A stretch of 64,000 bases of DNA from NCBI RefSeq assembly GCF_010731755.1, contig NZ_AP022589.1, positions 1,116,001 through 1,180,000 of the forward strand, in the 5' to 3' direction. The DNA comes from Mycolicibacter minnesotensis (GTDB lineage: Bacteria > Actinomycetota > Actinomycetes > Mycobacteriales > Mycobacteriaceae). The notes below the pieces were generated by a model. It was not told the origin of the DNA, made no database searches, and saw nothing but the letters and a program-made list of their open reading frames with translations. Positions within the stretch are counted from its first letter, which is position 1; every line of letters begins with the position of its first letter. The position numbers and the translations under genes are program-made. Positions 15,618-38,461 of the stretch are shown one piece after another.

Positions 15618-17774
15618 ATGGTTCCCGCACGCAGTTCCGACTCCCCTCGTCGGCCGCACCGGCAGAAGCGCCGCGCCGGCCTGGCCGTCGCCGCCGCGGC
15701 GGCGGGGGTCTCATTCGGAATCGGCCTGCCCGCGCTGAGCGCGCCCGTAGCGCACGCCGATATCGAGGACGCCTTCGATCAGCTGATGACCGGCATCTCT
15801 GTCGACACGTTGGGCGACTGGCCTGGACTCGCTAGCGGCACCACCTTCGACCTCACCGACTGGTTCCAGCAGGCGATCTATCTGCCCCTGTACAACGGAC
15901 TGGACCAGTGGCTGGACACCCAGGCCGGCCAGCAGGTCGCCGGTTTCCTCAACGGGTTAGGCAGTTTTGTCATCGGTGACGGCACTGCGGGCACCGAGAC
16001 GGACCCCGACGGCGGCGCCGCGGGCTGGCTGTTCGGCACCGGCGGCGCCGGGTGGGACAGCGATCAGATCGGAGTCGCCGGCGGGGCCGGTGGTGCGGCG
16101 GGGCTGATCGGCAACGGCGGAGCGGGCGGTGACGGTGGCGCCGAAGCCGCCGGCGGCGCCGGCGGCAGTGGCGGCTGGTTGCTGGGCAATGGTGGTGCGG
16201 GCGGTGACGGCGGATACGGCGCCCACGGTGGTGACGGTGGCAGCGGTATCGGCCTGTTCGCCGCCGGCGGCCACGGCGGTGACGCCGGTAACGGCGACAG
16301 CATCTTCTCCACCCCTGGCTGGGCGCGACCGGCGCTGGGCGGGGCCGGCGGCAACCCCGGGCTGTTCGGTACGCACGGCTCCGTCGGCGCGTTCGGCATC
16401 TTGGACAGCGGGCCGCCGATCGGCAGCGGCGCCTTCAGCACCGCCGGCACCTGGCTCACCGATGCCGACGGCCGGGTGGTGATCCTGCACGGGGTCAACG
16501 AGGTCAACAAGTACGCCCCCTTCACCCCGGAGGCCGACCACTTCGACGCCCAGGATGCGGCGTACCTGGCCGCCAATGGCATCAACTCGGTGCGCGTCGG
16601 CGTGATCTGGTCCGGGGTCGAACCCAGCCCAGGCCAGATCGACTACGGCTACCTGGCATCGATCAAGGCCACCGTCGACCTGCTCGGTTCGTACGGCATC
16701 GTCAGCGTCATCGACATGCACCAGGACCTGTACAGCGACACCATCACCGGCATCGGTGACGGGGCACCGGCCTGGGCGGTACAGATCGGGGACGCGCTCA
16801 ATATCAATTTCGGCTGGCCGTGGAACTACCCGCTCAACGCCGCCGTCAACCACGCCTGGGATGCGTTCTGGACCAACTCCCCCGGCCCCGACGGGGTAGG
16901 CCTGCAAAACCACTACGCCGGAATGTTCCAGGCCGTGGCGGGTATGCTCAACGGCAATCCCCATGTCGCCGGCTACGAGCTGATGAATGAGCCCTGGCCG
17001 GGTTCGGGCTATCTGTCGACCGCTTTCGGCAACCCGTTCTTCGACACCCAACAGTTGTCGCCGTTCTATGACCAGGTGACCGCCGCGATCCGCTCGGTCG
17101 ACCCGAGCACGCCGGTCATCTTCGGGTCCAACACCTTGTTCGGCAACCTGCCGGTTCCCACCCATGTGACCCCACCGGATGACCCGAACGCGATCTTCGC
17201 CTTCCACAGCTACTGCCCGTGGTACGAGATCTTGGGCAGCGACTTCGGCTGCGGGCTGTTCGACAGCTTCATCATGGACCACGCCAACGCCTACTCGCAG
17301 GCAAACAATGTTCCGGCCCTGCTCACCGAGTTCGGCAACACCACCAATCCCAGCGTGATCACCGGCGCCGCCGGGTCCGCCAACCAGTACGGCTTCGGTT
17401 GGCTCTTCTGGGATTACAACAACGTCCTGGTCCGCGACATGGATCAGCCGCCGGTCGGCGACAACGTTGCCACCGACGCGGTGAACGCGCTGGCCGCGCC
17501 CTATCCGCAGGCGGTAGCCGGCATTCCGGGCAACTGGTCGTTCAACGACGGGACTTTCGCGTTCAACTACTCCACCGAGATGGCCAACGGCTCGGGACAG
17601 TTCGCCGCGGGAGCGCACACCAACATCTCGGTACCACCCAGCCTCTACCCGGACGGCTACCAGGTGACGGTGACCGGAGGGCAGGTCGTCTCGGCCGCCG
17701 ACGCCCCGGTGCTGGTGATCGCCTCCAACGCCGGTGCAGCCACCGTCACGGTGACCGTCACACCCAACAGCTGA
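15618..17774 (+). CDS. Secreted GH5 glycosidase with PGRS linker (non-PE PGRS protein)
   Basis: Exported protein of 718 residues. It has a long basic n-region, a hydrophobic core and an AHA signal-peptidase site (predicted cut after Ala47). Residues 48-125 form a short module beginning DIEDAFD and containing YLPLYN and SFVIGDG; 128-260 are PGRS-type Gly/Ala repeats ([10 protein letters not shown]); from about 275 comes a glycoside hydrolase family 5 domain with acid/base Glu458 in YELMNEPW and nucleophile Glu571 in LLTEFGN. VNEVNKYAPF and the C-terminal beta-rich tail suggest the endoglycoceramidase-like branch, acting on glycolipids. There is no PE domain. The start ATG has only a weak GGCAGG upstream. 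Not at this position in H37Rv as I recall it. Confidence 0.85.
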   Translation: MVPARSSDSPRRPHRQKRRAGLAVAAAAAGVSFGIGLPALSAPVAHADIEDAFDQLMTGISVDTLGDWPGLASGTTFDLTDWFQQAIYLPLYNGLDQWLDTQAGQQVAGFLNGLGSFVIGDGTAGTETDPDGGAAGWLFGTGGAGWDSDQIGVAGGAGGAAGLIGNGGAGGDGGAEAAGGAGGSGGWLLGNGGAGGDGGYGAHGGDGGSGIGLFAAGGHGGDAGNGDSIFSTPGWARPALGGAGGNPGLFGTHGSVGAFGILDSGPPIGSGAFSTAGTWLTDADGRVVILHGVNEVNKYAPFTPEADHFDAQDAAYLAANGINSVRVGVIWSGVEPSPGQIDYGYLASIKATVDLLGSYGIVSVIDMHQDLYSDTITGIGDGAPAWAVQIGDALNINFGWPWNYPLNAAVNHAWDAFWTNSPGPDGVGLQNHYAGMFQAVAGMLNGNPHVAGYELMNEPWPGSGYLSTAFGNPFFDTQQLSPFYDQVTAAIRSVDPSTPVIFGSNTLFGNLPVPTHVTPPDDPNAIFAFHSYCPWYEILGSDFGCGLFDSFIMDHANAYSQANNVPALLTEFGNTTNPSVITGAAGSANQYGFGWLFWDYNNVLVRDMDQPPVGDNVATDAVNALAAPYPQAVAGIPGNWSFNDGTFAFNYSTEMANGSGQFAAGAHTNISVPPSLYPDGYQVTVTGGQVVSAADAPVLVIASNAGAATVTVTVTPNS

Positions 17775-17821
17775 GGCCCATCGCCTGCCGGACGGGCGCC
17801 GGGTGTGTTGGGATCGAAGGC

Positions 17822-18454
17822 ATGACGTCCCGGTTGCTGCCCTATGCCACCTCCCCCGGCCGCTTGCTGGTCCAACTGCTCAGCGACCTCGTCGTCGCGG
17901 CATGGACCTTCCTATGGGTGATGATCGCGCTGGCGGTGCACGGCGCGGTGACCACCATCGCCGGAGTCGGTCAACAGTTCGAGCGCGGGGCCAACGGCGT
18001 AGCCGACAGCTTGGCGTCGGCGGGCAAGAGCGCAGACCGCATCCCGCTGGTGGGCGACGCGGTGAGTAAACCCCTCACCGCAGCGGGCCATGCGGCAATC
18101 GACATCGCCGGAGCCGGCCACAACTTGAACTCCACCGCCGGTTGGCTGGCCTACGTGCTCGCATTCGCCGTCGCGGCGCCGCCGATTCTGGCGGTGGCGA
18201 TGCCCTGGCTGGCATTGCGATTGCGGTTCTTCCTGCGCAAACGGGCTGTGCTTGGCCTCTACTCCAGCCCCGCCGGAAAGCAGCTTCTGGCGCTGCGTGC
18301 GCTGACCAATCGCCCGCTGGGCAAGCTGACCGCGATCAGTCCCGATCCCGCCGGGGCCTGGCGGCACGCCGACCCCGTCGTGATCGGGGGCCTCGCCGCC
18401 CTGGAACTGCACGCCGCGGGCCTGGCCCGGCGGTCCCCCGCCGCGAACAGCTAG
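17822..18454 (+). CDS. Conserved membrane protein (Rv0779c position)
   Basis: A 210-residue protein with two hydrophobic regions: [21 protein letters not shown] (about 24-44) and [23 protein letters not shown] (about 114-136). Between them is an Ala/Gly-rich loop; a basic RFFLRKR follows the second. Topology suggests both ends on the same side. Function unknown. It matches the size and place of Rv0779c. The frame is open far upstream into the GH5 gene; ATG 17822 is chosen because it follows that gene's stop. It overlaps the convergent cyp126 stop by 4 bp. Confidence 0.8.
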
Positions 18455-19674
18455 GAGCTCAGCTCCACCATCATGTGCCGCATCCCGGTATGCCGATTGC
18501 TGCGCGTCCATTCCACCGGCGCCACCACCGCCACGTCACCGAACCGTCCGAGTAACTCCTCGTAGAGCACCCGAAGCTCGAGTCGCGCCAGATGGGCGCC
18601 CAGGCAGAAGTGCGCGCCGTGGCCGAATCCGATGTGCGGATTGGGTTTACGGCTGATGTCGAATTGGTCGGCCCGGTCGAAGACCGCCGGATCGCGGTTC
18701 GCCGACCCCTCCCACACCAGAACCTTCTGTCCGGCCTCGATGGTCTGCCCGCCCAGCACCGCACGCGCGGTAGCAGTACGCCGCTTCGACGGAGCCGGCG
18801 AGGTCCAGCGCAAGATCTCCTCGATGGCGGTGGGCAGCAGGCCGAGGTCGCCGCGCAGCAGGCGGTACTGATCGGGATGCTGGGCCAACGCCAGGAGCCC
18901 GCCGGCGATGGCGTTGCGGGTGGTCTCGGCGCCGGCACTGAACAACAATTGGAAGAACAGGTAGACCTCGAGGTCGCTGAGCTCGGGGTCGGTGGAATTG
19001 GCCACCACCGAGAGCATGTCGTCGGCGGGCTCAGCACGCTTGGCCGCGATCAGCTCCCTCCCGAAGGTGTAGACACGGTTGCCGGCGTCCTCGATAGACA
19101 GCCGCGACACCACGGCCTTACGCGATCCGCGGAAGTCGAAGCTGGGCTCGATCGCCTCGAAAAGCCAGTGCCGGTCGGCTTCGGGCACCCCCAACAGGAT
19201 GCAGATCATCTGCATCGGCACCTCGGCGGCGATGTCGACCAGGAAGTCAAAGGGAACGCCGCGCTCGACGGCGTCGAGCAGCGCCCGGGCCCGGTGGCGG
19301 AGGTCGGTCTCGACGCGGCGGATCATCCGCGGAGTCAGCCCGGAACTGACCAGCCTCCGAACCTGGGCGTGCCGCGGGTCGTCCATCATGTTCAGCAACT
19401 GGCCCGCGATAGGTAGGTCTTGCAGCACGGTGCCACCGAACGGGCGCTCCCCGCCGGTGACCGACGAATAGGTCTGCGCATCGCGCAGCACTTCGAGGGT
19501 TTCGGGGTGGGTGGCCACCGACCAGAAGCCCTCGCCGTCGGGGGTGTGCACCGTGGGCTCATGCCAAAACACCGGGGCAACCCGGCGGTGCAGAGCGAAC
19601 AACTCGTGCGGGAAGCCGTCGGCGAAGTTGTCCAGGTCGGTGAAGTCGATACCCGCGAGCTGCTGGGCCTCCAT
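18451..19674 (-). CDS. cyp126: Cytochrome P450, CYP126-like
   Basis: Soluble bacterial P450 of 407 residues. I-helix SAGAETTRN, ExxR motif EEILRW and haem-binding [10 protein letters not shown] with Cys357 are all intact. Identity as CYP126 rests mainly on position between purB and the Rv0779c homologue, as Rv0778 in H37Rv, and on general similarity. Substrate unknown. ATG 19674 lies 5 bp after the purB stop, so the two are probably co-transcribed. The upstream extension to 20160 lies inside purB and is false. Confidence 0.9.
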
Positions 19675-19679
19675 GACGG

Positions 19680-21098
19680 CTAGAGGATCGCGCCCGGAGC
19701 GTAGGCGGCGGCGACCGGATTCCGCTCGATGAGTTCGGCCACCTGAGCCGCAATCCGGTCGACCTGATCGGCCGCCGCTCCCGTGAACGCCTGCCGGTCG
19801 GCGACCGCCGCCTCCAGCGCGGCGCGGTCCAGCGGCAGTCGTTCGTCGGCGGCCAGCCGGTCCAGCAGGTCGGGTTCGGCGCCGCGTTCGCGCATGCCCA
19901 GCGCGACAGCCACCGCGTGCTCCTTGATGACCTCGTGGGCGACCTCGCGGCCCACCCCGGCACGCACCGCCGCGATCAGGACCTTGGTGGTGGCCAGGAA
20001 CGGCAGGTAGCGGTCCAGCTCGCGGGTGATCACCGCCGGGTAGGCACCGAATTCGTCGAGCACGGTCAAGAAGGTCTCGGTCTGTCCGTCGACGGCGAAG
20101 AAGGCGTCGGGCAACGCCACGCGACGCACCACGGAACAGAAGACGTCGCCCTCGTTCCACTGCGCACCGGCCAGTTCAGCGGCCATCGACGCGTAACCCC
20201 GCAGCACCACCTGAAGGCCGTTGACCCGCTCGCAACTGCGCGTGTTCATCTTGTGTGGCATTGCCGACGAGCCCACCTGGCCGGGTGCGAACCCTTCGGT
20301 GACCAGTTCGTGGCCGGCCATCAGGCGGATGGTCTGCGCCAGCGAGGAGGGGCCGGCACCCAGCTGCACCAGCGCCGAGACCACGTCGTGGTCCAGCGAG
20401 CGCGGATAGACCTGGCCGACGCTGGTGAGCACCGCCGAGAACCCCAAGAATGCGGCGACCCGGCGTTCCAGCTCACTGAGTTTGGCGGTGTCACCGTCGA
20501 ACAGATCGAGCATGTCCTGCGCGGTGCCCATCGGCCCCTTGATGCCGCGCAGCGGGTAGCGGTCGATCAGCTCACGCACCCGCTGCAGCGCGAGCAGGGT
20601 TTCCTCGGCGGCCGAGGCGAACCGCTTACCCAGCGTGGTGGCCTGCGCGGCGACGTTGTGGCTGCGCCCGGCCATCACCAGGTCCCGATAGGCCACCGCG
20701 TGGTTGACCAGGCGCGCAGCCACCGCGACCCCGTGGTCGTGGACGAGTTGCAGGGATTGGCGGATCTGCAGCTGCTCAACGTTTTCGGTCAGGTCCCGGC
20801 TGGTCATGCCCTTGTGGATGTGCTCGTGGCCGGCCAGCGCATTGAACTCCTCGATGCGGGCCTTCACGTCATGGCGGGTCACCCGCTCGCGGTCCGCGAT
20901 GGAGGCCAGGTCGACCTGGTCGAGGACGGCCTCGTAGTCGGCGATTGCCTGCGCGGGAACCGGCACGCCGAGCTCGGACTGGGCGCGCAGCACCGCCAGC
21001 CACAGTCGCCGTTCGGCGACGATCTTGGCCTGCGGCGACCAGATGTCTGTCATCGCGGTGCTGGCGTAGCGGTTGGCCAGCACATTGGGAATGCTCAC
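19680..21098 (-). CDS. purB: Adenylosuccinate lyase
   Basis: Fumarase/aspartase-superfamily lyase of 472 residues acting twice in purine synthesis (SAICAR to AICAR, adenylosuccinate to AMP). Signature loop [10 protein letters not shown] at 276-285 with the catalytic Ser; [12 protein letters not shown] and [17 protein letters not shown] supply other active-site residues. Corresponds to Rv0777. Followed immediately by cyp126. Confidence 0.97.
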
Positions 21099-21135
21099 GA
21101 GCAGCTAGCTTACGGTCGCCGGACGCACCGCTTCG

Positions 21136-21690
21136 TCAGCGGGGAATGCGCGAGGATTCCGGCGCGTCCGCAATGATGGGCCCGCGTCCTTCAGTCAGCG
21201 ATATCGCAGCCTCGATGAGGAAATCCGCGAGCGTCTGGATCGCCTGCCCCGGCGGCAGCGGTTCACAGATGAAGACAGGATTGGCTCGGGTGGCGCGCCG
21301 CATCATGTGATGGCATCCCGGCGCGAACTGCACCCGCTGCACCGTCATATCGTCGGCCCGGTTGGTGAGCGGGTGGGGATTCTGGATGTAGTGGATGCAG
21401 GTTCCCGTGCGGTCGATCCCGTAGCCGCTGAGCGCCGCGGCGCCGGGGTCAACGGTGAGCGGCCAGAACGGCGGCGCGAGGTCGAAGAAGCGCACGATCT
21501 CCCGCCGAGGACCGACCGGCACATGCCGGGTGAGCGATCGCGTCCTACACCGGGTGGCGATGTCGTAGGGACGCACCCGGGAGCCGTGCATGGCATCCAA
21601 GAACACCTCGGCCGCGATCCGGGCCGCAGGCGGCCACTTTTGCTGCGCTAATGCGCCATAACTGTCGTTGACGCATCCAACGGTCAACAT
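21136..21690 (-). CDS. Conserved hypothetical protein divergent from TetR gene
   Basis: I do not recognise a family. A 184-residue soluble-looking protein from ATG 21690 (MLTVGCVNDSYGALAQQKW), rich in aromatic and proline residues in the middle (FFDLAPPFWPLTVDPG) with two His in QFAPGCHHMMRR. No membrane span or signal. It diverges from the TetR gene at 21769, and two palindromes lie between, so it is the likely target of that regulator. Same place as Rv0776c, though shorter than I recall for that gene, so an upstream start or divergence is possible. Confidence 0.65.
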   Translation of the reverse strand: MLTVGCVNDSYGALAQQKWPPAARIAAEVFLDAMHGSRVRPYDIATRCRTRSLTRHVPVGPRREIVRFFDLAPPFWPLTVDPGAAALSGYGIDRTGTCIHYIQNPHPLTNRADDMTVQRVQFAPGCHHMMRRATRANPVFICEPLPPGQAIQTLADFLIEAAISLTEGRGPIIADAPESSRIPR

Positions 21691-21727
21691 GGAGACTCCG
21701 AATGTCGAGAAAAATGGACCGGATCGT

Positions 21728-21758
21728 AGTCTGACACAGACTGCTAGTCGGTGACTAG
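21728..21758. promoter_or_regulatory. Paired palindromes, candidate TetR operator
   Basis: AGTCTG-ACA-CAGACT (21728-21742) and CTAGTC-GGT-GACTAG (21744-21758) are two perfect inverted repeats with 6-bp arms, centres 16 bp apart. Both use AGTC/GACT half sites. They overlap the -35 and -10 candidates of the TetR gene. Confidence 0.6.
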
Positions 21759-21761
21759 GCT
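21731..21761 (+). promoter_or_regulatory. Candidate leaderless promoter of TetR gene
   Basis: CTGACA (21731-21736, one mismatch to TTGACA) and TAGGCT (21756-21761, TANNNT) are 19 bp apart. The -10 ends 7 nt before ATG 21769, so the message would begin at the start codon. Supports ATG 21769 over 21751. Confidence 0.5.
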
Positions 21762-21768
21762 TTGGTCG

Positions 21769-22443
21769 ATGGGTAATGGGAAGCCAACCCGGCGGGACAT
21801 GCATGCTGAGCTCACACGGTCCGCTGTGCTCGACGCCGCCCGTACCTTGTTCGTCTCCCAGGGATTCGACGCAACCTCGGTCGACGAGGTCGCGCAGTTG
21901 TCGCAGTCCAGCAAGGGTGCGGTGTACCACCACTTTCGCGATAAGCAGGCAATTTTCGCCGAGGTATTCCGGGCCAGCCAGGCCGACCTCATGCAGGCCG
22001 TGCTGCCCGGCGCTCTGGAGGCGATGCCCGACGGAGCCAGCCCCTGGGAGCAGGCGCTGCTGGCGATCAGTGCGGTGCTGCGCTGCTACGTCGACAATCA
22101 CGACGCGCGGGTGTTGCTGCGCGAATCGGCCAGCGCCCTGGGCTGGGACCGCAAACAGGCGGTCGACGAGGAACTGGCGCTGCCCCTGCTGCGCGGCGTG
22201 CTCAGCGAGCTGATCGAGGCCGGTGAGGTCCTAGCGCTACCGGTCGGGGTCACCGCCGAACTGCTCTACGCCCTGCTCAGCAAGACCGGTCCGATGATCG
22301 CCGCGGCCGCGGATCCCGCGCAGGCGGTCAGCGAGATCGAACCGGTCTTGTTCGCGTTGCTGAACGGTCTGCGCGGCGAACCGACACCGACGGCGGGCCG
22401 ACCACAGCGGTTGGGCTTCGCCCGACCGCACAACGCACCGTAA
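21769..22443 (+). CDS. TetR-family transcriptional regulator
   Basis: A 224-residue repressor-type regulator. The N-terminal helix-turn-helix lies at about 12-58 (RSAVLDAARTLFVSQGFDAT, then VDEVAQLSQSSKGAVYHHF), with an all-helical ligand-binding C-terminal domain. No RBS upstream; a -10 box 7 nt before the ATG suggests a leaderless start. It probably controls itself and the divergent gene at 21136 through the palindromes between them. Corresponds to Rv0775. Confidence 0.9.
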   Translation: MGNGKPTRRDMHAELTRSAVLDAARTLFVSQGFDATSVDEVAQLSQSSKGAVYHHFRDKQAIFAEVFRASQADLMQAVLPGALEAMPDGASPWEQALLAISAVLRCYVDNHDARVLLRESASALGWDRKQAVDEELALPLLRGVLSELIEAGEVLALPVGVTAELLYALLSKTGPMIAAAADPAQAVSEIEPVLFALLNGLRGEPTPTAGRPQRLGFARPHNAP

Positions 22444-22453
22444 AGGCTGCCGC

Positions 22454-23875
22454 CTACAGCGCGTGCAGGATGTCTTCGACCCGGTCCTTGGCGTCGCCGA
22501 ACAACATGGCGGAGTTCTGCCGGAAGAACAGCGGGTTCTGCACACCCGCGTAGCCCGAAGCCATCGAGCGCTTGAACACGATCACGTTGTCGGCGTCCCA
22601 CACGGTCAGCACCGGCATTCCCGCGATCGGGCTCGACGGGTCTTCGGCGGCGGCCGGGTTGACGGTGTCGTTGGCGCCGATCACCAGGACGACCGAGGTG
22701 TCACCGAAGTCGTCGTTGATCTCGTCCATCTCCAGCACGATGTCGTAGGGCACCTTGGCCTCGGCCAACAGCACATTCATGTGCCCGGGAAGGCGACCGG
22801 CGACCGGGTGAATACCGAAACGCACCTTGACGCCACGGTCGCGCAGCTTGCGGGTGAGTTCGGCGACCCCGTACTGGGCCTGCGCGACAGCCATGCCGTA
22901 TCCCGGGGTGATGATCACCGAGTCCGCGCCGGACAGCAGTTCGGCCACGCCTTCGGCGGTGATCTCGCGGTGCTCGCCGTAGTCCTTGTCCTCCGACGGA
23001 CCGGCCTCGATCCCGAAGCCACCGGCGATCACCGAGATGAAGGAGCGGTTCATCGCCTTGCACATGATGTAGGACAGGTAGGCACCCGAGGAACCGACCA
23101 ACGCGCCGGTGATGATCAGCAGGTCGTTGGAGAGCAGGAAGCCCGAGGCCGCCGCCGCCCAGCCCGAGTAGCTGTTGAGCATGGAAACGACCACCGGCAT
23201 GTCGCCGCCGCCGATAGAGGCCACCAAGTGCCACCCCAGCGCCAACGCCAGCACGGTGACCGCGATCAGCAACCACAGCTGCGGCTCGTAGACGAACCAC
23301 ACCGTGCAGGCCACGAACGCGACTAGGGCACCGATGTTCAGGAAGTTCTTGCCGGGCAGCATCAGCGGGTTGGACTTCATCCGCGCCGAGAGCTTGAGGT
23401 TGGCCACGATCGACCCGGTGAAGGTCACCGCACCGATGAACACCCCGATGAACACCTCGGCGGAGTGAATTCCCAGCAGACCCGAGGCCGCCAGCTCCTG
23501 CGCGTCGGGCCCGTTCCTGGCTGCCTCGACATGCAGGTAGCCGTTCCAGCCGACCAGGACGGCAGCCAACCCGACAAACGAGTGCAGCAGCGCGATCAGC
23601 TCGGGCATGCCGGTCATCTCGACGACTTTGGCGCGCCACAAACCGATCGCCGCACCCACCACGGTCGCGCCGATCAACAGCGCCAGACCAGCAGGCTGGA
23701 TGCAGTGGTTGACGGCCAAGGCGATGGTCGCCACCAACGCCACTGCCATCCCCAGAATGCCGAAGCTATTGCCGGCCTTGGACGTCTCGTGCTTGCTCAG
23801 TCCAGCCAGCGCCAGGATGAACAGCAACGCCGCGACGATGTATGCCGCCGAGGCGGCGGTCTCAACAGAAAACAT
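22454..23875 (-). CDS. pntB: NAD(P) transhydrogenase subunit beta
   Basis: Membrane subunit (473 residues) of the proton-translocating transhydrogenase that makes NADPH from NADH. About nine hydrophobic helices fill residues 1-270; the cytosolic NADP-binding domain III follows with [13 protein letters not shown] and [14 protein letters not shown]. It follows pntA by 35 bp and ends 11 bp from the convergent TetR gene. Confidence 0.95.
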
Positions 23876-23910
23876 AAGCGGGGTCTACTCCAAGTCGGGG
23901 TGCGCAGCGC

Positions 23911-25434
23911 TTAGCTGCGGGAGAACATGGCGAGCATGCGGCGGGTCACCGCAAAACCACCGAAGATGTTGATGCTGGCCAGCAGGATCGCCGCAGCGGC
24001 CAAACTCGTGATAATCGCGTCACCGTGGCCGATCTGCAGCAGCGCGCCGACCACGATGATTCCCGAGATCGCATTGGTCACCGACATGAGCGGCGTGTGC
24101 AGCGCGTGGTGCACATGGCCGATCACGTAGTAACCGATCACGATCGCCAGCGCAAAGACGATGAGGTGCACCTGCAGCGCTGCCGGAGCCATCGCGACCA
24201 GCGCGAACAGCACCGCAGCGGCCGCGACCACCACACCCAGTCGGCGCCCGGCCGACATCGGCTCCTTCTTCGCCTGCGCGACCACCGGGGCTTCGGCGAC
24301 CTTGGCCGGAGCGGCCGAGACCTGCACCGGCGGCGGCGGCCACGTCGACTCGCCGTCGCGAACCACGGTCATCGACCGCTGCACCACGTCGTCGAAGTCC
24401 AGCACCAGCTGGCCGTCTTTGCCCGGGGTCATCAGCTTCATCAGGTTGACCAGGTTGGTGCCGTAGAGCTGCGACGCCTGGGCGGGCAACCGGCCGGCCA
24501 GGTCGGTGTATCCGATGATCGTCACCCCGTTGTCGGTGACGACGGCCTGATCCTTGACAGTGCCCTCGACGTTGCCGCCGTTGGCCGCGGCCATGTCGAC
24601 GATCACGCTGCCCGGCTTCATCGACGCCACCATGTCCGCGGTGATGATCCGCGGTGCGGGCCGACCCGGGATGAGCGCGGTGGTGACGATGATGTCGACA
24701 TCGGCGCACTGGTCGGCGTAGAGCTGAGCCTCGCGCACCTTGTAGTCGTCGCTCATCTCCTTGGCGTAGCCGGTGGCAGACACCTCGGTCTCGGTCGACT
24801 CGATCGACAGGTACTCGCCACCGAGCGACCGCACCTGATCAGCCACTTCCGGCCGCGGGTCAGTAGCCCGCACGATCGCCCCGAGGCTGCCGGCGGCACC
24901 GATGGCGGCCAGACCTGCCACCCCGGCACCCACCACCAATACCTTGGCCGGCGGGACCTTGCCCGCCGCGGTCACCTGGCCGGTGAAAAACCGGCCGAAG
25001 ACATGGGCAGCCTCGATCACGGCGCGGTAGCCGGCGATGTTGGCCATCGAGCTCAGGACGTCCAGCGACTGCGCGCGGGAGATCCGCGGGACCGCGTCCA
25101 TGGACAGCGCTGTGATCGGCCGACGCGCCAGATCCTCAACCCGATCAGGGTTCAATGCCGGCGCCAGCAGGCTCACCAATGTCGCCCCCGGCTTCATCCC
25201 GTCCAGCTGCTCGGCCGACGGGGCGTTGACACCGAAGACGATGTCCGCGCTGCGTGCGTCGCCGATAGTGGCCCCAGCCTCGGTGTACGCCTCGTCAGCG
25301 AACGATGACGCCGTTCCGGCACCGGAATCCACGACGACGTCGTAGCCGAGTTTGGTCAGTGCAGCGACCGTCGTCGGCGTCGCCGACACACGCGTCTCAC
25401 CAGGCTGCGCCTCGGATAGGACACCGATATTCAT
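23911..25434 (-). CDS. pntA: NAD(P) transhydrogenase subunit alpha (fused PntAa-PntAb)
   Basis: A 507-residue alpha subunit. The NAD-binding domain I fills about 1-375 ([41 protein letters not shown]), a Pro/Ala-rich linker about 376-395, then the membrane part with three to four spans ([18 protein letters not shown] to the C-terminus). In H37Rv these halves are separate genes (pntAa and pntAb, Rv0155/Rv0156) at a different locus; here they form one frame as in E. coli. ATG 25434 (MNIGVLSE) chosen over 25449. A palindrome lies about 60 bp upstream. Confidence 0.93.
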
Positions 25435-25492
25435 GACGTAGCTCTCCACATTCGCATCTCTTCGCCATCTTCGGGCGGCCGACTCCCCTTGT

Positions 25493-25505
25493 TAACTGCA
25501 AGTTA
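25493..25505. promoter_or_regulatory. Palindrome upstream of pntA, candidate TetR operator
   Basis: TAACT-GCA-AGTTA, perfect 5-bp arms with 3-nt centre, flanked by TTGT and ACAA four bases out. It lies between the TetR stop (25551) and the pntA start (25434), in a locally AT-rich promoter-like stretch. Confidence 0.5.
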
Positions 25506-25550
25506 CAAAAATCCGACAAGAGGATCGCCGCAGCATACCGCGCGGCCGAA

Positions 25551-26171
25551 TCAGGCCGACACCGCGCGCTGATCAAGTGGAGCGAGCATATCGATGACAT
25601 CGACGACCGCGGCTCGTGCTGCTACCCGCGGCCGTTGGAGGTCATCGACCAGCGCCGCCATCACCGCTCCATCGACCATACAAACCAGCGCATATGCCAT
25701 CTCGACCCGCGCGATCCGACCGGAACGTTCGACGGCTTCGGTGACGGCTTCCGACCGTTGATGCAGGATCCGGCGCTGGATGTCGCGCAGCGCCGGCTGA
25801 CGGGAGCAGACAATGTAGCGCTCGTAGCGCGACACCAGCTGCTCGGCGACCCGCTCGCCGCTGTCTACCCCGACCAGTAGCTCGACCAGAATGTCCGCGG
25901 TGGTCTCGGCGCTACGCCGGCGCCGAGACAAGTCGGTGACGCGGGCGCGCAACTGCGCGACCTCCAGCATCTCGATGTGTTCCACCGCATGGGCGATGAG
26001 GTCGTCGAGGGACGAGAAGTAGTAGGTCGTCGATGCCAACGGCAGACCGGCCCGACGCGCGACGGCACGATGTCCTACCGCGTCGAATCCACCCTCGCGC
26101 AGCAGCTCAGCGGCAGCGCCGATCAGCGCATACCGTCGCCGTTCGCCCTTAGGCGTCACTGCTGTCATCAC
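25551..26171 (-). CDS. TetR-family regulator linked to pntAB
   Basis: A 206-residue TetR protein: DNA-binding helices in AAELLREGGFDAVGHRAVARRAGLPLASTTYYF (roughly 17-50), then a helical ligand domain. It reads in the same direction as pntA, 116 bp upstream, and the intervening region has a TetR-like palindrome. In H37Rv a TetR gene (Rv0158) also neighbours the pnt genes, so the regulator-transhydrogenase link appears to be kept even though the locus differs. Start could be 26171 or the next ATG, 26168. Divergent from the esterase at 26247. Confidence 0.88.
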   Translation of the reverse strand: MMTAVTPKGERRRYALIGAAAELLREGGFDAVGHRAVARRAGLPLASTTYYFSSLDDLIAHAVEHIEMLEVAQLRARVTDLSRRRRSAETTADILVELLVGVDSGERVAEQLVSRYERYIVCSRQPALRDIQRRILHQRSEAVTEAVERSGRIARVEMAYALVCMVDGAVMAALVDDLQRPRVAARAAVVDVIDMLAPLDQRAVSA

Positions 26172-26246
26172 GCGTAGATGCTGCCAGCCCGAGTATCACC
26201 GCATCATGCGTTTCCGCCTTTTTCCGACAAACGGCGACCCGCTGGC

Positions 26247-27089: not shown

Positions 27090-27119
27090 ACCCGGCCGCT
27101 CCGCGGCGCCTCAGAGCGA

Positions 27120-27713: not shown

Positions 27714-27743
27714 GTCACACAGGATAGCGGTACACGCGTCGGG

Positions 27744-29012
<1,269 letters not shown>

Positions 29013-29137
29013 GGGCGCCACTCCTCTCTGAGTTTCGCCCCGCTAGGCCGTCGGCGAGACTCGCGACACAGGATATATAGCGTCGGTTACTACGGATGGC
29101 GCTGCATGCCTCCAGGCGTGCAGGCCCGGCAAACGGG

Positions 29138-32100
29138 TCAGGCCGGGGCGCCCGGCGTGCCGGCCTGGCCGCCCGAACCTGCCTGTCCGCCCGACCCACC
29201 CGTGCCCGCGGCTCCGGCGGTGCCGCCCGCGCCGCCCTGCCCGGGGCTGCCGCCGTTGTATCCGGCGATTCCGTTGGCGCCGTTACCGCCGACGCCGCCG
29301 TTGCCACCGTCACCGTTCTCGCTGCCCTCCGTAGTCCCACCACGGCTAGCCGAGACGCCCGGGCTGCTGGCACCGGCATTGCCACCGGAGCCGCCGGTGC
29401 CGCCGATGCCACCGGAGCCGTTATTGCGATAGATCTCGCCGTTCGCGCCGGCCCCACCGTCGCCGCCGTAGGCACCGCTGCCGCCGATCCCATCCGTGCC
29501 AATGCTTCCAGCGTTCCCGCCGTCACCACCGCGCCCGCCGTTACCGCCGTAGCCGTTGTTCGCGTCGATCCGGCCGGTCCTGCCATTTCCACCGATACCG
29601 CCGTTACCGCCGTTACCGGCCTGGCCCGAGGCAGCGCCGGCATTGCCACCATGACCGCCACTGCCGCCGTTGCCGCCGTAGCTGTTGTTGGCGGTCGAAG
29701 TGCTGTCGGCACCGTTGCCGCCGTCGCCGGCATCGCCGCCACGACTCACGGTCGGTCCGGCGGTGCCGACCGATCCACTCTGCCCGCCGTTGCCGCCGCT
29801 ACCACCGTTGCCGCCGTAGCCATTGTTGTAGCCCAGCTGGCCGTCGTCGCCGTGACCACCGTTACCGCCGTCCCCGCCGGCTCCGGCCTGCCCAGTGCTG
29901 TTGGCTGCGCTTCCGCCAGTCCCACCTTGCCCGCCGTTGCCGCCGTAGCCGTTGTTGTAGCCGACGCGTCCATCAGCACCGTCACCGCCGGCGCCTCCGG
30001 TACCACCGTTGCCCACCTGGCCGGTGCTTCCCACCGTGCCGGCCAGCCCACCGGTCCCGCCGCTGCCGCCGCTGCCGCCGTAGCCGTTGTTGTATCCGAC
30101 TTGTCCGTGAGCACCCGCGCCGCCATCGCCGCCGACACCACCGCCACCGGCCGTACCGGTCCCATTGCCGGCATTGCCGCCCAGGCCACCGATTCCACCG
30201 GTGCCGCCTTGACCGTTGTTGTGCGTCACGTCGCCGGCCACACCCGTGCCGCCGGCACCGCCGTCGCCACCGTTACCGGCAGCACCGCCGAGGCCAACAG
30301 TCCCAGCCAGTCCACCGGTACCGCCATTGCCGCCGTGAGCTCCGGTGCCACTGTTGTAGCCACGCACGCCGTCGGCACCGGCACCTCCGATACCACCGGT
30401 ACCGCCATTACCGACCTGACCGGCGGCCCCTCCGGCGTTGCCGCCATTGCCACCCGTGCCACCGGTGCCGCCGTAGCCGTTGTTGACCCCGAAATCGCCG
30501 GTGGCACCCGCGCCGCCCTTACCGCCTTCGCCACCGTCACCGACCGCGCCGTCCGAGCCCATCACAGATCCACCGAGGCCACCCTTGCCGCCGGTGCCTC
30601 CATTACCGCCATTGCCGCCGCGGCCGGCGCCGGACTGCATGCTGGTGGCGTCCGCACCGTTGGCTCCGTTGCCTCCCGTACCGCCGCTACCGCCGTTACC
30701 GTGGTCGCCGCCGTTGCCACCGTTGCCGCCGGCACCACCGTTGGCAGCGGTCTGGCCGGTGCCGACAGGCGGGGCCGGGGTGTAGCCGGCGCCGCCGTCT
30801 CCACCGTTTCCGACGATGCTGCCGGCAGGAGTGCTGCCGGAGGTGCCGGCGAGGCCAGCACCGTTCGAACCGACTCCCGCCGTCCCGGCGGCGCCTCCGT
30901 GCCCGACGTTGCCGCCGTTACCGCCGTTACCGCCGGTGGTGTGAGTGGCGATCCCGGAGGCACCGTTACCGCCGTCACCGGGGTCAGCGCCGTTACCGCC
31001 GCTTCCGGCATTGCCGCCGGCACCTTGCGTTCCGGCGGTGCCGGTGCCGTTGTTGAGGGTGCCCGCAGCGCCGCCGTCGCCACCGTTTCCGCCCTGCCCG
31101 CCGGCTCCGCCGTTGCCGCCGTTGCCGCCGTTGCCGGTCCCGCCGTTTGCGAAGCTGCCGGTAGACCCGTCATTGCCGATGCCACCGTTGCCACCATTGG
31201 CTCCGTGGCCGCCGTTTCCTCCGGATCCGGCATTGCCGGCTTGGGTTCCGCTGGCTCCGCCTGCGCCACCCTGACCGCCCGATCCGCCGATGCCGCCGGT
31301 GTTTCCTGATGCACCCGGGTTCTGCCCGTCGGTACCTTGCGCGCCGGTTGCGCCATCACCACCGTGTCCGCCGCTGCCGCCATTGCCGCGGTCGCCGCCA
31401 TTGCCGCCTGCTCCGCCGTTCCCACCATTGAGGCTCGCTGGGGCGCGGTCGTCGCTGCCGGCGTCGTAGCCGTTACCGCCGTTGCCGCCGTTGCCGACGA
31501 CACCGGTCACGCCGTTGCCGGCAGTTCCGTCTTGGCCCGCGGTACCGGTGCCGGCACCACCGCCTGTGCCAGCCGCGCCACTTGCGCCGCCTGCTCCGGC
31601 AGCACCGGCGTTGCCACCATCGCCGCCGTTGCCGCCGGCGAGGTGGGTTGAGTTGCCGTCCTTGCCGTCGCCGCCATCGCCCGGGGTGCCGGCGTCGCCA
31701 CCGTTGCCGCCATTGCCGCCGCTGCCGTTGGCGCCTGCCGCGCCGCCAGCCGAGGAGGCTCCACCGTTGCCGCCCTGACCGCCGCTACCACCAGCGCCAC
31801 CGTTGCCGCCGTCGCCGGCGGTGCCGCCGTGGGTTCCCGCCGCGGCGGCGCCGTCGCCGGCTGCGTCATAACCGTCGCGGCCTTGGCCACCGTTGCCGCC
31901 CTGACCACCGTTGCCGCCGCTACCGCCAGCGCCACCGATAGCCCCAGTACCACCGTGGCCACCGGAGCCGGCCGCGCCGCCTCTACCGCCTTCTTGACCG
32001 TTGTCGCCGGAGTTGACTCCGCTCAGGCCGTGATAGCCCGCGCCGCCATCCCCACCGTTGCCACCGTCGCCGCCATTGCCCTGAGTGCCGTCGAACCCGC

Positions 32101-35100
32101 TGGCACTGCCATCGGAGTTCCGGCCGCCGGTACCGGCCTCGCCGCCGTTACCGCCGTTACCGCCGTTGGTCCCAGCGCCGCCGTTTCCACTCGGGACGGT
32201 GGCCTGGCCGCCATCAACACCGTCGGCACCCCGACCACCGGCACCACCATTGCCACCAACACCCGCGACGCCATCAACACCCGAAGCAGCCTGGCCCCCA
32301 CGACCCGAACCACCCACACCACCAACACCGGCATTACCACCGTTGCCACCAGCCTGACCGGCCTCACCATCAATCGAGGTGTTGCCGTCACTGAGACCAT
32401 CACGACCCGCAGCCCCATCAGTGCCATCAGCACCATCACCGGCGCTACCACCCACACCACCTAGACCCTGCAGACCATCCGTGCCCGCCGCACCATCAGC
32501 AGCCCGCGTGCCATCACCGGAGACACCACCAACACCGGCAGTGCCCGCCGCACCACCGGCACCGCCATCGCCACCAACACCACCAGCGCCACCACTGCCG
32601 CCAGCAAGACCCGCACCGGACTGCCCGACACCACTGCCACCGGCACCACCGGCACCACCATCGCCGCCAGCACCACCATTGCCGGCATTACCACCCACGC
32701 CACCAACACCGGCAACACCACTGTTGGCACCAGTACCGGCAACACCACCAGCGCCGCCAGCACCACCATTGCCACCACGCGTGCCCGCACCGCCGTCCCC
32801 ACCACGCTCACCAGCACCACCATCAACCGAACCCGCAGACCCGTCACCACCGGCAGCACCAGCACCACCCTGGGAACCAGCCCCACCCTGGGCACCGTGA
32901 CCGCCGGCACCACCGACACCACCATTGCCGCCATCACCATCGGCAACCCGCGTCAGCCCATCAGCACTCAGACCACCCTGACCACCACTGCCACCAGCAC
33001 CACCATTGCCACCAGCCGTGCCATCAACAGCACCCACGACGCCATCAACACCGTCAGCACCCCGACCACCGGCACCACCATTGCCACCAACACCCGCGAC
33101 GCCATCAACACCCGAAGCAGCCTGGCCCCCACGACCCGAACCACCCACACCACCAACACCGGCATTACCACCGTTGCCACCAGCCTGACCGGCCTCACCA
33201 TCAATCGAGGTGTTGCCGTCACTGAGACCATCACGACCCTCAGCCCCATCAGTGCCATCAGCACCATCACCGGCGCTACCACCCACACCACCTAGACCCT
33301 GCAGACCATCCGTGCCCGCCGCACCATCAGCAGCCCGCGTGCCATCACCGGAGACACCACCAACACCGGCAGTGCCCGCCGCACCACCGGCACCGCCATC
33401 GCCACCAACACCACCAGCGCCACCACTGCCGCCAGCAAGACCCGCACCGGACTGCCCGACACCACTGCCACCGGCACCACCGGCACCACCATCGCCGCCA
33501 GCACCACCATTGCCGGCATTACCACCCACGCCACCAACACCGGCAACACCACTGTTGGCACCAGTACCGGCAACACCACCAGCGCCGCCAGCACCACCAT
33601 TGCCACCACGCGTGCCCGCACCGCCGTCCCCACCACGCTCACCAGCACCACCATCAACCGAACCCGCAGACCCGTCACCACCGGCAGCACCAGCACCACC
33701 CTGGGAACCAGCCCCACCCTGGGCACCGTGACCGCCGGCACCACCGACACCACCATTGCCGCCATCACCATCGGCAACCCGCGTCAGCCCATCAGCACTC
33801 AGACCACCCTGACCACCACTGCCACCAGCACCACCATTGCCACCAGCCGTGCCATCAACAGCACCCACGACGCCATCAACACCGTCAGCACCCCGACCAC
33901 CGGCACCACCATTGCCACCAACACCCGCGACGCCATCAACACCCGAAGCAGCCGCACCGGCCCCTGTTCCGGCCACACCACCAACACCGGCATTACCACC
34001 GTTGCCACCAGCCTGACCGGCGCCACCAGCACCGTTGTTCACACCCGCGACACCGGCACTACCGGCAGCACCCGCAGCACCAGCACCACCACTGCCGGCA
34101 TTGCCACCAGCACCGGCAGCACCCACAACACCCGCGGTCGAACCACTGCCACCGACACCACCATTACCGCCGGCACCACCATTACCGCCGCCGCCGCCGT
34201 TGCCGTCACCGGTCACAAACGATCCAGCCGCACCATCAACGCCGTGACCACCCACGCCGCCAGCACCACCATCGCCACCAGCACCCGAGACAGCCCGAGT
34301 CACCCCATCCGCAGCCAAACCACCCAGGCCACCACTGCCACCAGCACCACCATTGCCACCAGCCGTGCCACTGTCGCCAGCATTGCTTCCGTTGACACCG
34401 CCCGCACCCTGACCGCCCTGGCCACCAGCACCACCAACACCCGCAGAACCGCTGGCACCATCAGCAGCCGCACCGGCCCCTGTTCCGGCCACACCACCAA
34501 CACCGGCATTACCACCGTTGCCACCAGCCTGACCGGCGCCACCAGCACCGTTGTTCACACCCGCGACACCGGCACTACCGGCAGCACCCGCAGCACCAGC
34601 ACCACCACTGCCGGCATTGCCACCAGCACCGGCAGCACCCACAACACCCGCGGTCGAACCACTGCCACCGACACCACCATTACCGCCGGCACCACCATTA
34701 CCACCGCCGCCGCCGTTGCCGTCACCGGTCACAAACGACCCAGCCGCACCATCAACGCCGTGACCACCCACGCCGCCAGCACCACCATCGCCACCAGCAC
34801 CCGAGACAGCCCGAGTCACCCCATCCGCAGCCAAACCACCCAGGCCACCACTGCCACCAGCACCACCATTGCCACCAGCCGTGCCACTGTCGCCAGCATT
34901 GCTTCCGTTGACACCGCCCGCACCCTGACCGCCCTGGCCACCAGCACCACCAACACCCGCAGAACCGCTGGCACCATCAGCAGCCGCACCGGCCCCTGTT
35001 CCGGCCACACCACCAACACCGGCATTACCACCGTTGCCACCAGCCTGACCGGCGCCACCAGCACCGTTGTTCACACCCGCGACACCGGCACTACCGGCAG

Positions 35101-38100
35101 CACCCGCAGCACCAGCACCACCACTGCCGGCATTGCCACCAGCACCGGCAGCACCCACAACACCCGCGGTCGAACCACTGCCACCGACACCACCATTACC
35201 GCCGGCACCACCATTACCACCGCCGCCGCCGTTGCCGTCACCGGTCACAAACGATCCAGCCGCACCATCAACGCCGTGACCACCCACGCCGCCAGCACCA
35301 CCATCGCCACCAGCACCCGAGACAGCCCGAGTCACCCCATCCGCAGCCAAACCACCCAGGCCACCACTGCCACCAGCACCACCATTGCCACCAGCGGTGC
35401 CATCAACAGCACCCACGACGCCATCAACACCGTCAGCACCCCGACCACCGGCACCACCATTGCCACCAACACCCGCGACGCCATCAACACCCGAAGCAGC
35501 CTGGCCCTCACGACCAGAACCACCCACACCACCAACACCGGCATTACCCCCAGCGCCACCAGCCTGACCGGCCTCACCGTTGGGATTGTCGATGTCGCCG
35601 TTGGTGCCCCGAGCGCCATCAGCGCCCCGGCCACCGTTACCGGCGTTACCGCCCACGCCACCGGCACCGTCAGTGCCGACGGTGGAGCCGCCGCCTCCGG
35701 CCCCACCATTGCCACCGACTCCGCCGTTGCCCCCGCGAGTGCCATCCGCACCAGGCTGCTCGCCGTCGACCCCGTTGATGCCATCGCCGCCCCGACCGCC
35801 GGCGCCGCCCGCACCACCGTTGCCTTCAGCGGCCCGCGTGAGACCGTCAGCCTCAACGCCGCCCGCGCCACCGTTGCCCCCAGCGCCACCGTTGCCGCCG
35901 GCGATCCCATCGGGGTCCTGCGCGGTGCCGTTGCTCCCAGCAAAACCGTTACCGCCGGCGCCACCATTGCCACCGAGACCAGCCAGGCCGCCATTGCCCG
36001 AAGCAGCGTGCCCGCTGTTGCCGCTGGCGCCACCCGCCCCACCCAGGCCGGCGTTGCCTCCAGCGCCACCATCTTGGCCGGCAGCCCCCTCAGGATTGTC
36101 GGCATCGCCATCAGCTCCGTCGGCACCGTCCGCCCCGGCACCGCCGTTACCGCCGTTGCCGCCTAGGCCGCCTTGGCCATCAACGCCGACGGTGGCGCCG
36201 TTGCCGCCGAGTCCGCCGTTACCGCCAGCACCACCGTTGCCACCAGCTTCACCCGCGGCGCCAGGGTCCACGCCGCTTGCCCCAGTGAGGCCCGCGCCGC
36301 CAGCGCCACCGTCGCCGCCGGCACCACCATCACCTCGGGTGGCGTACGAGCCATCAGCAAGCAGGCCGCCGACGCCGCCGTCGCCGCCGGCACCGCCGTG
36401 GCCGCCCGCGGTGCCGTTAACGGATCCGTCGACTCCATCGCTGCCCTGGAAGCCGGTGCCGCCGGCACCGCCCTGACCACCTGCACTGCCGGTGCCGTGG
36501 AGGCCGGTCGCAGCGGTGCCGTCGCCCGCAACACCACCGGCGCCGAAGGCGCCCCCGTTGCCGCCGGCACCGCCATAGCCGGCATCGAGATGGTCTGCCG
36601 TACCCGCAGCACCCTGACCACCGGCGCCGGCCTGCCCGGCATTGCCGCCATCGCCGGCGGCACCACCGACGCCAGCAGTGCCCGCGGCACCATTGGTCGC
36701 GGTTCCCGCCGCGCCCGCGGCACCACCGTTGCCTCCGGCGCCGCCGTTACCGGCGTTGCCGCCGACGCCCCCAATGCCGTTCTCGCCGTTGTCGAAGGTG
36801 CCTTCCGCGCCCGCGGCGCCACTGCCCCCGCTACCGCCGGCCGCGCCCTTACCTCCGATGCCACCATTGCCGGCGTTACCCGACACCGAGCCGCCCGCGC
36901 CACCGGCACCGCCGGTACCGCCGTGGCCGCCGGCTCCGCCGTTGACGCCGGACGCACCCGCAGTGAGCGCGTCGGCACCCGCTGCGCCAGCACTACCAGC
37001 TCCACCGGCACCACCGGTGCCGCCGTTGCCGTGTGCACCACCAGCACCGCCGATGCCACCAGCGCCGCCAGATGCGCCCGCGCCGTCGGTCAGGTTCGCC
37101 GTACCGTTACCCCCGGCACCGCCGGTCCCACCGTTGCCGCTGGCACCACTGGGAACCTGGCCGTCGACGCCCGGTCGTCCTGCGTTGCCCCACATCCAGG
37201 CCATGAACTTCTCGCCCGCGGCCCCACCTGCTCCGACAACCGTCCCGATCTGACCGCCAGCACCGCCAGCGCCACCATCACCGCCACCGAGGGCGCCATC
37301 GCCACCGAGTCCACCGGCGCCACCATCACCGGCAGCTCCCGCATTTCCGCCGGCCCCGCCATCACCGGCAGCACCGAAGTGCCCACCAACGCCGCCCACA
37401 CCGCCACGGCCACCGCCGCCGCCATCGCCACCGCTACCGCCGGCGCCACCGCTACCGCCCAGGTCATCCAGGCTGATGCCGCCGGCGCCACCCTCGCCAC
37501 CCGCACCACCCGCACCGCCCACCCCACCGGCGCCACCGACACCGCCGAGGCCCAGCACGAATCCGGCAGCACCGCCGGCACCGCCGTTGCCACCTAGACC
37601 ACCGACCAGCCCGTCGCCACCGATGGTGCCGTCCAGTCCCAAGATGCCCTCGATGCCGGCCATGCCGGCCAGACCCGTAGCACCGGCACCCCCAGCGCCG
37701 CCCGCGCCACCGAAGCCGATCAGACTGGCCGCGTCGCCGCCGGCACCGCCATTGCCGCCGGCCAGCAGCGCATCCAGCGAAGCGCCACCGGCGCCACCGG
37801 CGCCGCCATCGCCGAACAGCCAGCCGCCCAGTCCGCCGGTGCCACCGTCGGCGCCGGCAAAACCGTCACCGCCCACGCCACCGTTGCCGAACATGCCGGC
37901 ATTGCCGCCCATCCCACCGACACCGCCAGCGATTTCGGCTACGCCGGCCGTACCCGCGCCACCAGAACCGAGCAGGAACCCGCCATCGCCTTGGTCCCCA
38001 AACCAGCCCCAGCCACCCAGCAGTGAGTCGTTGGCCCCATCAAAGCCATCGATTCCATTACCGATCAGCGCCCGGCCGAACAGATCCAGGAATGGCTGAT

Positions 38101-38461
38101 TGAGCAGGTCGAGAAGCTGCTGATTGTCTGCGATGAAGTCCTGCGTCAAGTCATAGAGCGGCAGGTACAGCTGCTCGTGATAGAAACCCGCCACCGCCAG
38201 GTCGAACTGCTCAAATGCGTCGTAGAGAAAGAAGTTGCTGCCGGCGGCCGAGCCAGGCTCCACCCAGCCGGTCCAGTCCCCCCACAGCGCCGGGTCGAAC
38301 AGGTCCTCCATGTCCGCACCGGCCGTCGGGGCAGACGCCAAGGGCGTCACCCCAAACGCCAGGAACGCCGCCACCGAACTCACCGCACCGCCGACGCGCC
38401 GCACGGCTTCGCCTCGACCCTGCGGTCGAACTTTGCCGTTTTCATTGCGCTGACGAGCCAC
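29138..38461 (-). CDS. Giant secreted PGRS-repeat protein without PE domain
   Basis: A 3107-residue Gly/Ala/Asn-rich protein from GTG 38461, with GGGAGCAGGA as ribosome binding site. Residues 1-49 form a Sec-type signal peptide ([20 protein letters not shown] core, AGA cleavage site). Residues 50-136 are a non-repetitive module: MEDLFD, YLPLYD (99-104), [18 protein letters not shown] (119-136). The last part resembles the GRPLIGNG motif that opens PGRS domains in PE_PGRS proteins, but no PE domain is present. From about 160 to the end are GGxGG triplet repeats with near-identical long repeats in the middle. Family knowledge: PGRS domains are surface-exposed and modelled as polyglycine-II sheets. 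Likely surface protein, function unknown. No enzymatic domain is seen at the C-terminus. Confidence 0.85.
29410..30490 (-). repeat. About nine 43-residue NNGYGG modules near the C-terminus of the PGRS protein
   Basis: The C-terminal part of the giant protein has a regular module whose landmark is GYNNGYGG or a variant ([39 protein letters not shown]). Landmarks recur about every 130 bp, or 43 residues. The DNA is diverged between copies, unlike the central repeats. Confidence 0.7.
32210..33950 (-). repeat. 831-bp near-identical tandem repeat inside the PGRS gene
   Basis: Two full units start at 32210 and 33041 and a third partial unit starts at 33872, all with the same sequence GCCATCAACACCGTC. 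Period is 831 bp, 277 codons, so frame is kept. Only scattered single-base differences are seen between units 1 and 2. Confidence 0.9.
33948..35394 (-). repeat. 516-bp near-identical tandem repeat inside the PGRS gene
   Basis: Units begin at 33948, 34464 and 34980 (landmark GCAGCCGCACCGG). Period is 516 bp, 172 codons; the third copy breaks off near 35394. Copies are almost identical. After the array, sequence of the 831-bp unit type resumes (35386-35560). Confidence 0.9.

Follow-up and report, generated by a model that had tools for sequence, protein, structure and literature searches.

PGRS Proteins with Predicted Signal Peptides in Place of the PE Domain in Mycolicibacter minnesotensis

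Two PGRS Proteins with a Common Opening

The analyzed window (64,000 nucleotides, C1:1116001-1180000 of the single-contig 4.22 Mb genome of Mycolicibacter minnesotensis) contains two open reading frames (ORFs) for PGRS proteins, both at the positions where an earlier, sequence-only reading had placed them. The first ORF (15618..17774, plus strand) encodes a GH5-PGRS protein of 718 aa (P0001) with Pfam matches to GH5, PGRS, and GH5_C. Its predicted signal peptide (residues 1-47, 15618..15758), assigned by motif, ends in AHA immediately before D48 and is followed by an acidic spacer (residues 48-78, 15759..15851), which was delimited from the alignment and the AlphaFold model and varies in length among relatives. 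The next segment (15852..15986), recognized by alignment, profile comparison, and the structural model, is a linker of the YxPLH/l-GRPLI type that ends in FVIGDG. The PGRS domain (15972..16403) comprises a PF21526 match at residues 119-188 (60 bits vs. a cut-off of 27) and remains glycine-rich to about residue 262, and the rest of the protein is formed by endoglycoceramidase-like GH5 catalytic and C-terminal domains (16431..17759), assigned by Pfam, NCBIfam, and structure comparison. In the AlphaFold (AF2) model of this protein (mean pLDDT 87), the predicted signal peptide appears disordered and, like the spacer, mostly falls under pLDDT 50, the linker is modeled as two helices (residues 79-99 and 102-112; pLDDT of the linker blocks 81-86) running into the PGRS domain, and the latter reaches about 90-97.

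The second ORF (29138..38461) is read from the minus strand, starts with GTG at 38461, and encodes a giant PGRS protein (P0002) of 3107 aa and 45% glycine; the plus frame across the same interval contains stops. A signal peptide is predicted by motif at residues 1-49 (38315..38461), ending in AGA before D50, and the linker, identified by alignment at residues 78-138 (38048..38230), carries GRALIGNG. PGRS repeats occupy 29141..38047; the protein scored 21.6 bits against PF21526 in the Pfam scan (cut-off 27) and 27 bits, over the cut-off, in the genome-wide PGRS search, and the Pfam scan found no enzyme domain in it. An AF2 model of the N-terminus, built from 9 sequences, was poor (mean pLDDT 44) and was not used. 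Long near-identical internal repeats were observed at residues about 1020-2084 (32209-35401 in the window), and exact 60-residue words recur in the protein at distances of 172, 277, and 344 residues.

Both proteins open with a signal peptide followed by a spacer and then by a YLPLY...LN...IG[DN]G segment; the opening motifs quoted in the sequence-only reading were found in each of them, and in both an AxA-type signal peptide ends, by motif, just before an aspartate. The proposed homology of the two openings is borne out by their post-signal parts alone (78 residues in the GH5-PGRS protein vs. 92 in the giant protein), which align in BLASTP with an E-value of 3e-6 and 31/97 identical positions. 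The score of this alignment is 82, compared with a mean of 29.2 (s.d. 5.7) after shuffling, and none of the 2000 shuffles scored as high; by these two measures, the view that the N-termini are unrelated and resemble each other by chance is ruled out. A PE domain encoded upstream of the pair was likewise rejected, none of the 13 PE matches of the genome being located in the window.

A Family of 35 ORFs without PE

Searches with both openings and with the PGRS family yielded 36 candidate ORFs, the window pair included, which were reduced to 35 after reading; the dropped candidate (L083) has neither a signal peptide of the family type nor PGRS. The 35 ORFs total 41,787 residues, or 3% of the genome. 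All 28 PGRS places detected in the genome (E-value up to 0.001) are located inside these ORFs and none of the 13 PE matches is, the nearest PE-PGRS distance being 32.7 kb; in a Pfam scan of all 35 ORFs, no PE match was obtained. Eight PE ORFs were read and contain 3-12% glycine, none of them being glycine-rich, and the five further PE ORFs are open frames of 102-191 aa. Seven members of the family lack a PGRS place, namely two proteases without any PGRS and five glycine-rich ORFs that remain under the threshold. The observation made on the pair extends to the whole recognized PGRS set of this genome, and the proposal of a separate, signal-peptide-led PGRS family without PE is upheld in a genome with few PE genes. 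The PE family search also gave an unexpected match over the cut-off in the control genome of Escherichia coli, which may be due to chance or to a labelling effect. No description of a signal-peptide PGRS family was found among open-licence papers; in public annotations, the relatives are named "PGRS repeat-containing protein", "cellulase family glycosylhydrolase", or "PecA family PE domain-processing aspartic protease".

All 35 ORFs display signal-peptide anatomy, with a net positive start and a core of mean hydropathy between 1.49 and 2.35, as judged by motif and with start codons picked by eye. A YxPLH-like motif is present in 31/35 ORFs and an IGNG-like motif in 30/35 (two false motif hits, in L082 and L087, were discarded), whereas the remaining 5 have no recognizable IGNG. 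The sequence-only reading had assigned a Sec signal to the pair; the predicted signal peptide itself stands, and the Sec assignment is based on its anatomy, with 15/35 ORFs that could fit Tat. Export by Tat, with the rest of the arrangement unchanged, is nonetheless unlikely, since RRx with small or hydrophobic residues after it, close to the hydrophobic core, is confined to these 15 ORFs and the other 20 lack the pattern. Since cleavage is predicted from AxA|D, the hydrophobic stretch could alternatively be an uncleaved anchor that retains the proteins in the inner membrane or periplasm. This is distinctly unlikely, given that AxA stands before an acidic residue (D/E) in 33/35 ORFs and that a cell-surface location has been reported or proposed for PecA and PE_PGRS proteins (PMC6819658 and PMC9436101).

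Type VII secretion genes are present in the same genome, which contains 39 PPE matches, three EspG matches, and three EccC genes that were read. One of the EccC genes best matches EccC3, and EccC5 (ESX-5) is present at full length (2680 bits); therefore, the lack of a PE leader on the PGRS proteins of this genome is not due to a missing ESX-5. The third EccC gene (L159:15046-18993) is more distant from EccC3 as well as from EccC5; EccC5 leads its matches, which include an EccC2 chain.

A Linker Shared with PE_PGRS Proteins

The sequence-only reading had treated residues 48-140 as a new, dedicated module for export or anchoring, and this did not hold for the second half of the segment. A profile of signal-peptide openings (A1; 33 rows, of which this genome supplied 26, all rows being picked for showing the motif) was compared with a profile of PE-led N-termini (A4; 11 of 17 prepared) and aligned with it in HHalign at a probability of 97 and an E-value of 6e-11 over 51 columns, which cover the linker only. 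By this comparison, the second half of the module is homologous to the l-GRPLI linker of PE_PGRS proteins and the module is only half new, and the GRPLI-like opening is indeed common to PE_PGRS, as had been suggested. Convergence of glycine- and alanine-rich sequence rather than common descent could be argued from the shortness and biased composition of the segment, but it is extremely improbable in view of the ordered motif YxPxH-QxWI-S-G-IN-GRxLIGNG, the profile comparison, and the detection of all eight PE-led loci by A1, seven of them at E-values no higher than 8e-14 and one at 3.6e-13.

The N-termini of 30 relatives from 19 genomes were read. Twelve of them consist of a signal peptide and the module, 8 carry a PE domain, 9 have a long low-complexity stretch ahead of the linker (an AxA signal peptide is clear in 7 of these, and 2 are unclear), and 1 was unreadable. 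The 8 PE-led N-termini contain a long linker of the type FQTLVYGPVH...QAWI...INAP...GRDLIGNG and were found by virtue of it; the linker is shorter in other PE_PGRS N-termini of A4. Since the linker occurs behind PE, behind a signal peptide, or behind a signal peptide with a low-complexity stretch, it is not tied to one export route; it is more likely to be part of the PGRS fold than an export tag, and export would be set by whichever leader precedes it.

PMC7550000 names this linker l-GRPLI and proposes a transmembrane or positioning role for it, and in PMC9436101 a helix extending up to GRPLI is suggested to face, or be positioned for, EccC5. Among the matches listed, down to an E-value near 6e-25, those to the PE_PGRS N-terminal profile number 0 in G172 and G300, 1 each in G024 and G337, 2 each in G004 and G151, and 4 in G315, the absence of PE_PGRS being established by coordinates in M. 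minnesotensis and only indicated in the other 34 genomes. Non-PE proteins with the linker were found in these seven genomes. Recognition by EccC5 is thus not the whole reason for conservation of the linker. A candidate PE_PGRS protein in one relative (G191:C28) was rejected, as it proved to be a PE protein about 300 aa long that lacks PGRS repeats.

Continued dependence on ESX-5, e.g., through joint secretion with a linker-recognizing PE or PPE partner, would be compatible with the EccC5 gene of this genome and with the positioning suggested in PMC9436101. We consider it very improbable, because the linker occurs in non-PE proteins of genomes with 0-4 listed PE_PGRS-profile matches, M. smegmatis is without functional ESX-5 according to PMC7028111, and PMC4418733 reports ESX-5 from slow growers only, the genomes compared here being probably those of fast growers.

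Exchange of Leaders on the PecA Domain

The PecA domain is found behind PE (G029, G023, G105, and others), behind a signal peptide with a YxP[IL][NH] segment (the clade of the window), behind a signal peptide with a spacer (G030, G339, and G282), and behind a signal peptide with a low-complexity stretch (G315 and G004). A maximum-likelihood tree was built for 33 PecA domains, i.e., 32 of the 58 domain matches (30 with loci, L061, and one L065 gene) plus P0121, and requires 4 changes of leader. A tree constrained to keep the 16 PE-led rows together on a single side was rejected, with a log-likelihood 64 lower and an AU p of 9e-7. The PE group had 14 rows in the first tree and was enlarged on reading L184 and L185; for L191, the PE label was assigned by eye, as the script pattern had missed this leader. 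The signal-peptide-led L061 and L171 cluster with the PE-led L184 and L185, all four combining PGRS with PecA (support 96/93). When well-supported branches alone are considered, the PE label (14 rows) has to change only once and the signal-peptide-plus-module label only twice. L061, P0121, and L183 form long branches, the composition of L061 and L183 is odd, and the inner order of L061, L171, L184, and L185 is not settled by support; with these caveats, the tree suggests that leaders may have been exchanged more than once. LipY offers a precedent for such a swap, as one enzyme that stands under PE, PPE, or a signal peptide in different species (PMC7550000), although it is a lipase and not based on PGRS.

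C-Terminal Domains

A C-terminal domain was matched by the Pfam scan in 11/35 ORFs. Seven carry an endoglycoceramidase-like GH5 domain (P0001, three at L064, two at L074, and L086), three a PecA-type aspartyl protease domain (PF20729 at 271-297 bits; L061 with PGRS and two at L065 without it), and one, L068, a DUF2599 domain. For the other 24 ORFs, including that of the giant protein, the scan matched only PGRS or nothing, which agrees with the earlier view that the module can carry an enzyme or not. The GH5-PGRS genes at L064 and at L074 are arranged in tandem, and the N-terminal 130 residues of the L074 pair are identical, which suggests a probable recent duplication or conversion. The NCBIfam scan of ten ORFs of the window matched two, a P450 and a dehydrogenase-type protein, neither of which bears on the PGRS proteins.

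The nearest solved structures to P0001 are those of Rhodococcus endoglycoceramidases I/II (PDB 5ccu, 2osx), with which it has the GH5 fold in common; its Glu458 and Glu571 each fall opposite a Glu of 5ccu. In an alignment of 68 sequences, Glu458 is invariant and Glu571 is present in at least 90%; we take these two positions to be the catalytic Glu pair of GH5 endoglycoceramidases. The differences are that P0001 is fused behind PGRS and that it scored 270 bits against the NCBIfam EndoGlycCerase equivalog, short of the cut-off of 700. The protein is therefore described here as endoglycoceramidase-like, with a putative enzyme activity.

Two minor observations concern the cargo. The L065 proteases have a signal peptide and no PGRS and occur in a genome in which no PE_PGRS was found, so the name "PE domain-processing" may not fit them. 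In L132 (G172), GH5 follows almost straight after the linker, with hardly any PGRS in between; a linker with very little PGRS is thus possible.

Proposed Arrangement and Relation to Known Systems

The reading that we favor, with a probability of about 0.8, is that a cleavable signal peptide replaces the ESX-5 leader, PE, in this group of PGRS proteins. The signal peptide would occupy the place that the PE domain has in PE_PGRS proteins, and the inner membrane would be crossed by the general pathway, most likely Sec, with a cut at AxA|D. The YxPLH...QxWI...IN...GRxLIGNG segment would form two helices serving as the cap and starting point of the poly-glycine PGRS sheet, a role that we infer from the model. 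The sheet, after passing the mycomembrane by some route, would keep the protein attached to the outer membrane, in line with what has been proposed for PE_PGRS, and display endoglycoceramidase-like GH5, a PecA-type protease, or DUF2599, or else nothing besides itself. The leader, the capped PGRS, and the cargo would then be three exchangeable parts, of which the leader would have been exchanged more than once. The architecture, the lack of PE on the recognized PGRS proteins of this genome, the homology of the linker, and the different leaders on one protease domain are read directly at the sequence level.

PE_PGRS proteins, which are ESX-5 substrates, resemble this family in the PGRS domain (PF21526), the l-GRPLI linker, and an optional C-terminal enzyme, including PF20729; unlike them, the family has no PE, has a signal peptide with an acidic spacer, and makes up the whole recognized PGRS set of its genome. 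PecA (the PE_PGRS35 homologue) and the PE-led PGRS aspartyl proteases have PF20729 in common with it, and L061 keeps PGRS and groups with L184 and L185; in contrast to PecA, the members described here have a signal-peptide leader, and the two at L065 are without PGRS. The PGRS proteins of M. smegmatis, compared by description only, likewise have a clear PGRS domain outside the PE_PGRS-rich group, whereas their N-terminus is left open in PMC11939664. The family suggests an answer to the question raised there on the N-termini of PGRS proteins outside PE_PGRS-rich species.

In discussions of PE_PGRS proteins, the PE leader, ESX-5, and PGRS are usually taken to belong together. An ESX-5-bearing genome whose recognized PGRS set stands on predicted signal peptides indicates that the role of PGRS may be separable from the export route, the PE tag and the PGRS domain looking like exchangeable parts. 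It also offers access to PGRS in organisms without ESX-5 and bears on the proposal that EccC5 reads the linker (PMC9436101).

Distribution and Possible Age of the Signal-Peptide Form

The named relatives mostly belong to Mycolicibacter (the M. terrae complex). The opening of the giant protein was found in Mycolicibacter arupensis, M. engbaekii, M. heraklionensis, and M. nonchromogenicus (7 loci), as well as in Mycobacterium sp. UM_WGJ (1 locus). Within the GTDB genus, 132/396 genomes match the A1 profile at an E-value of 1e-5, a count that includes PE-led proteins with the same linker and for which at most 10 candidates were scored per genome, 23 genomes reaching 10. At the family level, 7/151 genomes match, five from the genus of the window (its own genome included) and two (G403 and G481) from another. 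One ORF of G403 comprises a signal peptide, a low-complexity stretch, the linker, and PGRS, and a second has the linker and PGRS behind a stretch that is not interpretable; the match in G481 is weak (9.6e-5), with no linker visible.

Signal-peptide PGRS proteins are thereby distributed over the clade of the window, genomes with proteins resembling P0054 of Mycolicibacterium psychrotolerans, and one ORF outside the genus, and PE-led PGRS was read in G203, G006, G120, G029, G105, G007, and others. This distribution favors a signal-peptide form that would be older than the PE form, with room left by gene transfer and the small sample. We give even odds to a fuller scenario, in which signal-peptide-led PGRS came first, PE leaders repeatedly captured capped PGRS with its cargo once ESX-5 had appeared, and the linker was kept for folding or anchoring and not for EccC5. 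In that scenario, surface display by PGRS would be independent of type VII secretion.

A metagenome protein (P0025), on a contig of only 4193 bases and with no signal peptide visible, begins at the linker and PGRS and carries PF17389/PF17390, presumably rhamnosidase-type domains and another kind of cargo.
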